Positions 15,075 through 18,081 of a stretch of 33,992 bases of DNA are shown one piece after another. The position numbers were made by a program, and so were the translations under genes. How positions within the stretch are numbered: the first letter of the stretch is position 1; the number at the start of each line of letters is the position of its first letter. Origin of the DNA: Kiloniellaceae bacterium (lineage in GTDB: Bacteria > Pseudomonadota > Alphaproteobacteria > Kiloniellales > J153); contig JAJFGL010000064.1 in the NCBI GenBank assembly GCA_021776135.1, positions 1-33,992 of the forward strand. Reading direction: 5' to 3'. The notes below the pieces were generated by a model, which did not search any database, was not told the DNA's origin, and saw nothing but the letters and a program-made list of their open reading frames with translations.

Positions 15075-16565
15075 TCAAGCCTCTGGGCGGTGCTTCGGCA
15101 AGCGGATCGTCGCGCGTAAGCCGCCGCCCGGCCGGTTGGTCAGGGTTATGTCGCCGCCGTGGCCCCGGACGATGGACCGGGCGATGGCCAAGCCGAGACC
15201 GGCGCCGCCGGTGTCCCGGCTGCGCGAGGCTTCCAGGCGGAGAAAGGCGTCGAAGACCCGCTCAAGATCGGCCTCAGGAATACCAGGGCCGTCGTCGTCA
15301 ACGGTGATTTCGTAGGCCGTGTCCAGGCTGCTCACGGCGACCCGCGCCCGGTCCCCATAGGCGGCCGCGTTCTCGATAACGTTGGTTAGGGCGCGTTTCA
15401 AGGAAACCGGCCGGCAATGATAATGTAACGCTTGAGTCTCCGAATAACGCACGTCCAAACCGCCCTCGGCCAGGTCGTCGCAGAGGCTGGCGATCAGGGC
15501 TGTCAGGTCCATGGGCCGGGTTTCCTCGCGCGCCGCATCCTCGCGCGCGAAGCTTAGGACGGCCTCGACCATCTCCTGCATCTCGGCCAGGGTTTCCAGG
15601 ATCTTTTCCCGGGCTTCGGGATCCTCGACGAACTCGGCACGCAGGCGAAGGCTGGTGATGGGGGTCCGCAGATCGTGGCTGACCGCCGCCAACATGCGCG
15701 TGCGGTCGCGCACGAAGCGTTGCAGCCGTTCAACCATGACGTTGAAGGCTTGGGCGGTTTGGCGCACCTCCCTGGGGCCTTCCTCCGCCAGGGGCGGGAC
15801 CTCCTCGCCGCGGCCCAAGCGCTCCGCCGCGCCGGCCAGGGCGCGCATGGGCCGGGTGATGCGGCGGACCGAAAAGACCACGATCAGCGTGACCGCGAGC
15901 GCCATGAGCGCCAGCCAAGTCAAGGTTGACCAGGCCCAGGCCGGCGCGGCGGGCGGCAGCAGGGTCGCCGCGTTGAGCCAGCGGGCATCGGCCAATTGCA
16001 CTGCGATGGTTAGGCTCAGGGGGCCGGGATAAGGCTGGCCGCGCCAGCGCCACGGATGCGCTGAATCGTCATCGTCATCGTCGCCGTCGTCATCGTCGTC
16101 ATGGCCGTCATGACCGTTCATAGGGCCGCGGTGCATTCGGCTTCGCCATGCGCGCCGCATCATGCGATCCCAGGGTCTAAAGGCATCCGGCGCGGCGGTT
16201 TCGATTCGAACCAAGACGTTTCGCGCCTGGGTGCCATCCAGCATATCCGCCAAATGCTTGCGCAGGGGGTTGTCGCGATGGGCGGCGTCGCCGGGGGCTA
16301 CCGCGCTGTCTTGAGCCAGCCAGTAGCGCAAGCGCGGCCCGCTCGCGGTTTCGACGATTCGATCGCTCAGTTCCGCCGGGATATCGCCCAGCAGACGCAC
16401 GATCGAGAGCGTGCGCGACAGCACCTGGGCGCGGTCGGCGGCGCGGACAGCGTGGCGGCGCTCATCGAGAAACAGGAATACGCTGATCGCCTGAAGAGCC
16501 ACGAGGGCCAGCAGCAGCAAGGTGATCATCTGCCCGGCCAGGCTTCGCGGCCAGATCCGGATCAT
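15075..16565 (-). CDS. Sensor histidine kinase with periplasmic Asp/His-rich tract
   Basis: A 496-residue kinase with transmembrane helices at about 13-33 and 215-235 enclosing a 180-residue periplasmic sensor. That sensor carries GHDGHDDDDDGDDDDDDSAH (residues 151-170: twelve Asp and three His). A HAMP domain (RRITRPMRALAGAAERL), the phosphoacceptor H-box AVSHDLRTPITSLRLRAEF, the N-box NVIENAAAYGD and the ATP-binding DDGPGIPEADLERVF and GGAGLGLAIARSIV follow. It overlaps the response regulator gene by 4 bp. The acidic tract is unlike ordinary sensor domains and suggests binding of a divalent cation; this is inference. The tract is encoded by a TCATCG-type triplet repeat (about 16056-16113). 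Confidence 0.93.
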   Translation of the reverse strand: MIRIWPRSLAGQMITLLLLALVALQAISVFLFLDERRHAVRAADRAQVLSRTLSIVRLLGDIPAELSDRIVETASGPRLRYWLAQDSAVAPGDAAHRDNPLRKHLADMLDGTQARNVLVRIETAAPDAFRPWDRMMRRAWRSRMHRGPMNGHDGHDDDDDGDDDDDDSAHPWRWRGQPYPGPLSLTIAVQLADARWLNAATLLPPAAPAWAWSTLTWLALMALAVTLIVVFSVRRITRPMRALAGAAERLGRGEEVPPLAEEGPREVRQTAQAFNVMVERLQRFVRDRTRMLAAVSHDLRTPITSLRLRAEFVEDPEAREKILETLAEMQEMVEAVLSFAREDAAREETRPMDLTALIASLCDDLAEGGLDVRYSETQALHYHCRPVSLKRALTNVIENAAAYGDRARVAVSSLDTAYEITVDDDGPGIPEADLERVFDAFLRLEASRSRDTGGAGLGLAIARSIVRGHGGDITLTNRPGGGLRATIRLPKHRPEA

Positions 16566-17281
16566 GTGGGTTCGACCTCCGCGCCGAGCCTGTAGCCGCC
16601 GCCCCGGACGGTCTGAATCAGCGTCGGGTTTTTCGGGTCGGCCTCGATTTTGCGGCGCAAGCGGCTGACTTGATTATCGATACTGCGGTCGAAGGCCTTG
16701 GCGGCGCGGCCCTGGGTTAGATCGAGCAATTGATCGCGCGACAGCACCAAACCGGGACGCTCGAGAAAACTGCTCAATAAACGCGCTTCGGCGGCGCTGA
16801 GGGGAATCGCGGTGCCTTGGACATCGATCAACTCGCGCCGCTTGGCGTCGAATATCCAGCGGTCGAAACGAAGCCGTTCCAGGACCGCTGTACCGCGCGA
16901 TCGCGGCAGGCTTTGGGCGCGCCGCAGGACCGCTTTGATGCGGGCCAGCAACTCGCGCGGGTTGAAGGGCTTGGTCAGGTAGTCGTCGGCGCCGATTTCC
17001 AGTCCGATGACGCGCTCGGTCTCCTCGGCCATGGCGGTCAGCAATATGACGGGCGGACCGGCGGTCTCGCGCAAATGACGGCACAGGCTGAGGCCGTCTT
17101 CCCCCGGCATCATGATGTCGAGCACAACCAGATCGATGGCGCCGGTCTTGAGGGCGCGCCGCATGGCCGTGCCGCCATCGGCGGCCGTGACCCGCAGGCC
17201 ATGCTTGCCCAGGTACCTGGCCAAGAGGTCGCGGATGTCGTGGTGGTCGTCGACCACGAGGATATGAGGCGTCGATTCCAT
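16562..17281 (-). CDS. OmpR-family response regulator
   Basis: The protein has a receiver domain (HILVVDDHHD; phosphoacceptor Asp in VVLDIMMPGEDG; LLTAM; TKPFNPRELLARIKAVLRR) and a C-terminal winged-helix DNA-binding domain (LSAAEARLLSSFLERPGLVL, then SRDQLLDL and RSIDNQVSRLRRKIE). It is the partner of the kinase encoded next, with which it overlaps by 4 bp. The ATG at 17281 starts 239 residues; a TTG at 17320 would add 13 residues but is not better supported. A 10-bp-period direct repeat in the divergent intergenic region is a candidate binding site. Confidence 0.95.
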   Translation of the reverse strand: MESTPHILVVDDHHDIRDLLARYLGKHGLRVTAADGGTAMRRALKTGAIDLVVLDIMMPGEDGLSLCRHLRETAGPPVILLTAMAEETERVIGLEIGADDYLTKPFNPRELLARIKAVLRRAQSLPRSRGTAVLERLRFDRWIFDAKRRELIDVQGTAIPLSAAEARLLSSFLERPGLVLSRDQLLDLTQGRAAKAFDRSIDNQVSRLRRKIEADPKNPTLIQTVRGGGYRLGAEVEPT

Positions 17282-17352
17282 GGGTCTCGGTTTTGCTTCC
17301 GACTTCGCTTCAAACCTCAATATGCGGTGCCGCGGCCAAGTTGGGGGGAGAA

Positions 17353-17371
17353 AATTGTATCCAATTGTATC
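17353..17371. promoter_or_regulatory. Candidate OmpR-type response regulator box
   Basis: AATTGTATC is repeated exactly at 17353-17361 and 17363-17371, a 10-bp period. Tandem half-sites of this spacing are the usual binding mode of OmpR/PhoB dimers. The box lies between the response regulator gene (minus) and the EF-hand gene (plus), so it could control both. Confidence 0.45.
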
Positions 17372-17490
17372 ACAGGGGCGTCTGGCGACATTGCGCGACT
17401 AAGCAGTTCCATCCTGGGCATGGAAACCCGATAATATTGCTCTAAGTAACAGGTATCGCGAAACTTTAAATTAGAACCAGTGAGGACCAG

Positions 17491-18081
17491 ATGAAAACCA
17501 GAACCAAGATCACGGCCGCCGCCAGCGCCACCATTCTTCTTGTCGGCCTGGGGGTCGCCAGTGTCACCCAAGCCCACGGCAAGAAAGGAGAACACGGGGG
17601 CGGGTCGTCCTACGGGATGGGCCAGGGCCAGGGCTATCACGGCATGGGCCAAGGCATGGGCCAGGGCCGCCACGGCATGGACCAGGGCCGCTACGGTATG
17701 GGTAAGCACGGTGCCCGGGGCATGACGCGCATGCTAGGCAAATTCGACGGCAACGGCGACGGTGACGTAACTCAGGCGGAGATCGACGAAGCGCGCGCCA
17801 CCCGCTTGGCTCGTTTCGACACCGACGGCGACGGAAACGTGAGCCTCAAGGAATACGAGAGTCTTTGGCTCGCCGCCATGCGTGAGCGCATGGTTGACCG
17901 CTTCCAGTATTTAGATGCCGACGGCGACGGCATGGTCAACAAGGCTGAATTCGTCGAACCTTATTCCGGTATGGTCAAGTTCACAGACCGCAACGGCGAC
18001 GGTATGCTCAACCGCGACGACATGGGCCGCTACAACGGCCGGATGATGAGGGATGACGACGACGACGACGACGACAGCTAA
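17491..18081 (+). CDS. Secreted four-EF-hand protein with Gly/Met/His-rich region and Asp8 tail
   Basis: The 196-residue protein has a signal peptide (residues 1-28, ending TQA-H) and then a low-complexity region (29-80) of repeated GMGQG/YHGMG/RHGM units. Four canonical EF-hand loops follow: 86-97 (DGNGDGDVTQAE), 110-121 (DTDGDGNVSLKE), 142-153 (DADGDGMVNKAE) and 166-177 (DRNGDGMLNRDD). The tail is eight aspartates and a serine (188-196). It should bind Ca2+ in the periplasm; the Met/His repeats could bind copper or another soft metal. It is divergent from the two-component genes, whose sensor carries a similar Asp run. GAGGACC precedes the ATG. Function in signalling or buffering is inferred. 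Confidence 0.85.
   Translation: MKTRTKITAAASATILLVGLGVASVTQAHGKKGEHGGGSSYGMGQGQGYHGMGQGMGQGRHGMDQGRYGMGKHGARGMTRMLGKFDGNGDGDVTQAEIDEARATRLARFDTDGDGNVSLKEYESLWLAAMRERMVDRFQYLDADGDGMVNKAEFVEPYSGMVKFTDRNGDGMLNRDDMGRYNGRMMRDDDDDDDDS

Follow-up and report, generated by a model that had tools for sequence, protein, structure and literature searches.

How bacteria sense extracellular Ca2+ is, to our knowledge, poorly understood, and the periplasmic EF-hand proteins known to us usually have no known partner. The locus considered here lies within a window of 33,992 nucleotides from an alphaproteobacterial genome (the whole stretch of DNA that was analysed) and encodes an EF-hand protein divergently from a two-component system. 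Both the sensor kinase and the EF-hand protein carry long runs of aspartate, which raises the question of whether these genes form one system acting on one cation.

Organization of the locus

The relevant features are as follows.

15075..16565, minus strand: sensor histidine kinase, 496 aa (Pfam, hydropathy)
16065..16109, minus strand: Asp tract, kinase residues 153-167
16562..17320 as listed, minus strand: OmpR/PhoB-type response regulator, probable ATG start at 17281
17356..17371, plus strand: tandem TGTATC-N4-TGTATC in the divergent intergenic region, proposed (candidate) binding site of the regulator
17491..18081, plus strand: EF-hand protein, 196 aa, predicted to be periplasmic from its signal peptide (read by eye)
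17491..17574, plus strand: probable Sec signal peptide, EF-hand protein residues 1-28 (by eye, hydropathy)
17575..17730, plus strand: Gly/Met/His-rich segment, EF-hand protein residues ~29-80, before the EF-hands
17746..18021, plus strand: four canonical EF-hand loops, residues 86-97, 110-121, 142-153 and 166-177
18052..18075, plus strand: Asp8 tail, EF-hand protein residues 188-195

An earlier note on this DNA correctly paired the kinase with the divergent EF-hand gene, but did not stress the OmpR-type regulator that sits between them. Since the regulator frame and the kinase start overlap by 4 bases, we read regulator and kinase as a single operon facing away from the EF-hand gene. Pfam identifies HAMP, HisKA and HATPase_c in the kinase, Response_reg and Trans_reg_C in the regulator, and EF-hand in the partner. 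The best NCBIfam matches are EnvZ and OmpR, both under the curated cut-off (205.1 versus 415 for the kinase, 241.5 versus 331 for the regulator). Scanning for promoters and terminators yielded nothing useful. Elsewhere in the window, Rfam identifies a tRNA gene (19854-19924, minus strand), and the region 8885-15071 beside the kinase holds an RND efflux pair, a PadR regulator, a flagellar rod-type protein and BluB; this gene order is retained in three congeners, and the genes were not found at 15 tested loci outside the genus.

Conservation of the three-gene unit

A profile of kinase N-termini searched in 61 genomes of the order produced 25 matches at E ≤1e-45, and the best 19 kinases (E ≤2e-74) were taken as the orthologous group. 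The trio, with the EF-hand gene divergent next to regulator and kinase, is complete for 17 of these 19 closest kinases of the order; the other two are broken by contig ends, which in G023 place the kinase on a different contig from the regulator and EF-hand gene, and in G058 leave the halves of the trio at two contig ends. An evenly drawn class-wide sample of 385 genomes yielded 15 kinases matching at 1e-55, of which 11 have an EF-hand neighbour; the exceptions are L100 and L101, with another small periplasmic partner, and L103 and L104, with neither. Three further orders (17, 15 and 31 genomes) contributed 22 new kinases, 20 of them with intact flanks, while a fourth such search covered one genome that was already included. 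The EF-hand gene is present at 15 of the 20 intact loci (13 by rule, two via reading frames examined by hand); at four of the others there is an adenylate-cyclase-like gene and at one no EF-hand gene was found.

Comparison of 14 window genes with 18 loci showed that three congeners retain flanking genes. At all 15 loci outside the genus, by contrast, only the EF-hand gene, the regulator and the kinase are retained, and the trio is therefore the unit. Its conservation across the order, the class and further orders bears out the proposal that the three genes belong together. Judging from gene neighbourhoods, the trio is probably a genuine ion-sensing circuit and not a one-genome curiosity, because it recurs in many related bacteria. 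In a midpoint-rooted tree of 51 kinase catalytic parts, 34 of the 39 rows on one side are EF-linked, compared with 2 of 12 on the other. The domain combination had not been recognised in the earlier note, and we found no description of the trio as a unit in the open-access literature searched, subscription papers being outside the scope of that search.

Some relatives differ in composition. The family kinases at L151, L152, L153 and L154 have a short non-acidic loop and are divergent from an adenylate-cyclase-like gene; such a gene also occurs near two plasmid kin. A plasmid example from Ruegeria sp. B32, annotated 'calcium-binding protein', combines three EF loops with a Met/His/Gly-rich head, and the kinase of that plasmid has no strong Asp tract. 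Sinorhizobium kin were rejected as trio members: the kinase is ~44% identical, but has other neighbours and no acidic tract.

The kinase sensor domain

Two hydrophobic segments (residues ~12-33 and ~210-233) flank the periplasmic domain of the kinase, and HAMP, HisKA and HATPase_c follow. Residues 153-167, DGHDDDDDGDDDDDD, include 12 Asp among 15, exactly as first described; the three accompanying His are also present (His152, His155 and His170), but only one of them falls within 153-167. With all windows counted, the chance of such an Asp window at the kinase's own Asp frequency is ~2e-8. The loop that contains the tract varies in length and is flanked on both sides by conserved parts of the sensor domain. 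It is not obligatory in EF-linked kinases, because seven of them have little or no tract (L057, L058, L059, L063, L109, L110 and L113), which sits poorly with the earlier interpretation. Both structure models were too poor for use (mean pLDDT 44.9 and 42.6), and therefore no fold search was carried out.

The EF-hand protein

The four canonical EF-hands, Gly/Met/His region and Asp8 tail attributed to the partner are all borne out by its sequence, which also begins with a probable signal peptide. The EF loops start at residues 86, 110, 142 and 166, coincide with four EF-hand_1 stretches and have standard ligands in all four cases; PF00036 scores 50.1 bits over four stretches against a gathering score of 25.4, which places the protein in the EF-hand superfamily. 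Likeness to XopAW (43.7 versus 120) comes down to shared EF-hand repeats only. Membership in the lanmodulin family was likewise rejected, as NCBIfam LanM NF053806 scores 30.1 bits versus a cut-off of 135 and Pro is absent from loop position 2; among 36 EF-hand proteins, 0 of 119 loops have Pro at this position. Lanthanide binding by the protein, as distinct from LanM membership, is conceivable.

Outside the loops, the linker between EF-hands 2 and 3 has six positions (W126, R131, R133, D136, F138 and Q139) that are invariant in 18 of 18 aligned proteins. The Met and His content of the Gly/Met/His segment differs strongly among orthologues, some of which have no His there, and the EF-hands are retained. 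Orthologues of the EF-hand protein are also found without this two-component system next to them (L075, L076, L077, L105, L106, L108 and L112). Such lone orthologues are split with respect to the tail, which has little acid in L075-L077 and is acidic in L105 and L106.

Co-variation of the two acidic stretches

To relate the two acidic stretches, we counted Asp/Glu in two places: in the kinase loop, as the maximum within any 15 residues, and in the EF-hand protein, over its final 20 residues. Excluded before the correlations were L059 (EF-hand protein cut by a contig end), L098 (interrupted kinase frame) and L078 (no kinase in the stretch). In the resulting 35 pairs the measures are correlated (Pearson r 0.75, Spearman 0.73), also as phylogenetic contrasts (r 0.60, p 1.6e-4; 0.58 on the IQ-TREE tree); omission of families or of weak-tract rows lowers the correlation to 0.44 (p 0.02). 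Seven control comparisons of overall acidity, involving the cytoplasmic part of the kinase, the preceding sensor part and the body of the EF-hand protein, are not significant. At the thresholds used, L037, L048, L081 and L042 are discordant, and the weak-tract kinases of L057, L058, L063, L109 and L110 have partners whose tail is weakly acidic too.

With unchanged measures, replication on 13 new pairs gave a Pearson coefficient of 0.50 (p 0.08), a Spearman coefficient of 0.56 (p 0.045) and contrasts of 0.16 (p 0.60). This set leaves out the truncated loci L150 and L162, loci L164 and L171, whose EF frame escaped the rule, and five loci that have no EF-hand gene. All 48 pairs together give contrasts of 0.55 (p 5e-5), and an independent-pairs test comprised 4 pairs, too few to reach significance. 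The coupling of tract and tail is thus supported overall by the sequence comparisons, without independent replication under phylogenetic correction. The suggestion that the two stretches are related stands insofar as the 35-pair co-variation with flat controls indicates a link and not a coincidence, but the 13-pair replication is weak.

These results bear on the possibility that the acidic runs are functionless low-complexity drift arising by repeat slippage, and that only the pairing of the genes matters. The tail, DDDDDDDDS, is encoded by one GAT and seven GAC codons, as slippage might produce, and the runs vary widely in length. However, GAC and GAT are mixed in the kinase tract, and kinases from many families share the acidity, which co-varies with that of the partner tail while the controls remain flat. 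Moreover, at least 6 acids in 15 residues are found in 23 of 36 EF-linked kinases versus 2 of 15 other kinases. We therefore consider drift highly improbable.

The intergenic tandem repeat

A score of ≥10 over the 12 positions of the tandem repeat is attained by 31 of 56 regulator upstream regions, as against 4 of 1120 shuffles, and by 24 of 37 regions of the EF-linked set. As the pattern was derived from the trio loci, matches there are expected and the informative part is its rarity elsewhere. In eight genomes picked for having the trio, the relaxed pattern TGTAWCNNNNTGTRTC occurs at nine sites, seven of which are at the trio locus, and the reversed control at two. When one mismatch was allowed, four congeneric genomes contained 22 sites versus 7 for the control, with 18 being off-locus. 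All-against-all comparison of 19 off-locus stretches revealed a single pair of homologues, G000:C50 and G002:C10, and in each of these the site falls within a coding frame. The simplest, though not proven, reading of this distribution is that the regulator would control a small regulon centred on the trio locus; weak further targets are possible.

Paralogous systems and alternative partners

Paralogous systems (L066 from the same genome, L069, L053, L054 and L068) have, in the divergent position, a gene for a protein rich in Gly and mostly also in Met, which carries a C-terminal stretch of ~60 residues. Predicted periplasmic partners with this domain are encoded at the following positions.

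L066: 8275-8844
L069: 4105-4659
L100: 3609-4040
L101: 6818-7249
L053: 7587-8048

In L100 and L101, this stretch (42% and 29% identical to L069, respectively) is present instead of EF-hands, and their kinases, which carry acidic tracts, lie close to the EF-linked kinases. Nothing in Pfam, NCBIfam or the PDB sequences matches the ~60-residue domain, and a by-eye assignment to PepSY found no support in the same resources. According to the earlier note, homologous kinases lacking both the tract and the EF-hand neighbour would speak against the link between the genes. Such kinases do exist, the same-genome paralogue L066 being an example, but joint absence of the two is expected under coupling.

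A broader, speculative reading, which we regard as unlikely, is that these systems belong to a three-component sensor class with an exchangeable periplasmic partner. The divergent position and the Gly/Met/His head would be kept and the working domain swapped between EF-hands and the unnamed ~60 residues, while tract and tail would be matched and compete for the same ion or basic surface, with partner abundance setting the threshold.

The partners of the paralogous systems also touch on the idea that the locus senses a transition metal, the His/Asp tract and the Gly/Met/His segment binding Cu, Zn or Ni and the EF-hands being secondary. In the same-genome paralogous system the partner is Met/Gly-rich and a YHS-domain gene lies close by, tract His and partner His co-vary weakly (contrasts r 0.34, p 0.044), and on pDSHI03, a conjugative plasmid of Dinoroseobacter shibae (Roseobacter; L140, 2512-10725), an EF-hand protein is accompanied by a multicopper oxidase, a DUF302 protein and a copper ATPase. 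Yet it is the EF-hands that are kept, whereas Met and His of the segment vary strongly, down to His-free orthologues. Furthermore, as far as the tested window genes go, the trio has no copper or zinc gene beside it outside the genus, and the kinase reaches 138.8 with TIGR01386, the model for CzcS/SilS/CopS heavy-metal kinases, whose cut-off is 292.55. Transition-metal sensing is thus, in our opinion, quite unlikely.

A model for the circuit

The gene unit, the conserved intergenic repeat, the canonical EF-hands and the co-variation of the acidic stretches are direct observations. A model consistent with them, to which we give about an even chance, is that the trio constitutes one dedicated envelope-sensing circuit with a periplasmic EF-hand partner feeding back, the cation most likely being Ca2+, which is favoured because the EF-hands are canonical. 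In this model, where regulator binding, export, ion, response direction and feedback are all conditional, the periplasmic loop of the kinase, rich in Asp and with some His, would read the cation or sense how it affects the envelope. Once phosphorylated, the OmpR-type regulator would bind the tandem TGTATC repeats and control its own operon together with the EF-hand gene; both kinds of control are likely given what is established about OmpR-type systems. The EF-hand protein, presumably exported, would bind the same cation through its EF-hands and, at lower affinity, through its acidic tail, buffer the ion near the membrane and feed back on the kinase by ion withdrawal or docking. That each protein has a second acidic stretch is in keeping with sensing or buffering of low affinity at millimolar ion, by analogy with the PhoQ cluster. 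The earlier interpretation is right in outline, in that the genes are coupled and probably act on one cation.

The main rival, which we consider rather unlikely, casts the EF-hand protein as a co-sensor: it would be the true ion receptor, its loaded form docking on the kinase and switching it, with the acidic stretches serving contact or competition and not buffering. This would account for linker residues W126-Q139, whose invariance (18/18) exceeds the needs of loop chemistry, for the divergent position that the partner gene holds across families, and for the different small domain found in its place in related systems. On the other hand, the contact is a predicted one, no structure model of the monomers or of a complex being usable, and some orthologues of the EF-hand protein are encoded away from the system. 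With an EF-hand protein linked to a single kinase, regulator and candidate operator in a widespread unit, the question of how extracellular Ca2+ is sensed becomes testable at a single locus, and the co-variation of tract and tail marks residues for mutation.

Comparison with known systems

Lanmodulin and MxcQE resemble the trio in that a periplasmic four-EF-hand protein is looped with a two-component system. In Methylobacterium, lanM expression depends on MxcQE and deletion of lanM alters mxcQE expression; lanmodulin of strain AM1 has Pro at EF loop position 2 (PMC9260416). The protein described here differs in both its LanM score (30.1 versus 135 bits) and the lack of Pro at that position (0/119 loops).

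EfhP of Pseudomonas aeruginosa is another predicted periplasmic EF-hand protein tied to a two-component system, since its transcription needs Ca2+ and the Ca2+-dependent CarSR (PMC11559002). The comparison with the trio is by description. Canonical EfhP has two EF-hands versus four here, and a divergent neighbour arrangement goes unmentioned for EfhP/CarSR in the portion of that source available to us.

Like the kinase described here, PhoQ is a membrane kinase whose periplasmic domain carries an acidic run. PhoQ is not known to have an EF-hand partner. Its periplasmic cluster, EDDDDAE, has been tied to divalent cations (PMC8534201). The run described here is longer and located in a variable loop, and a PhoQ-type, PAS-like fold is not evidenced, the model being unusable.

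As to gene arrangement, the trio resembles CpxP/CpxRA and ZraP/ZraSR of enterobacteria, in which the gene for a small periplasmic partner is divergent from the two-component operon and apparently controlled by the system; the divergent periplasmic-partner gene typical of such accessory systems is present here as well. ZraP reportedly represses ZraSR, to judge from the title of a cited paper. Divergence of cpxP is documented (PMC6737893), and the direct regulon of ZraR is very small, comprising zraP, zraSR and mgtA (PMC7657598). ZraR is sigma-54 dependent (PMC7657598), whereas the regulator here is of the OmpR type. Unlike CpxP and ZraP, the partner is an EF-hand protein: among its Pfam hits only EF-hand families are significant, with no CpxP/ZraP/Spy-type match. 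Feedback by the EF-hand protein is the best reading because the arrangement matches those of CpxP/CpxRA and ZraP/ZraSR, and by this analogy the trio would be best read as a system organised like either of them, built from unrelated parts.
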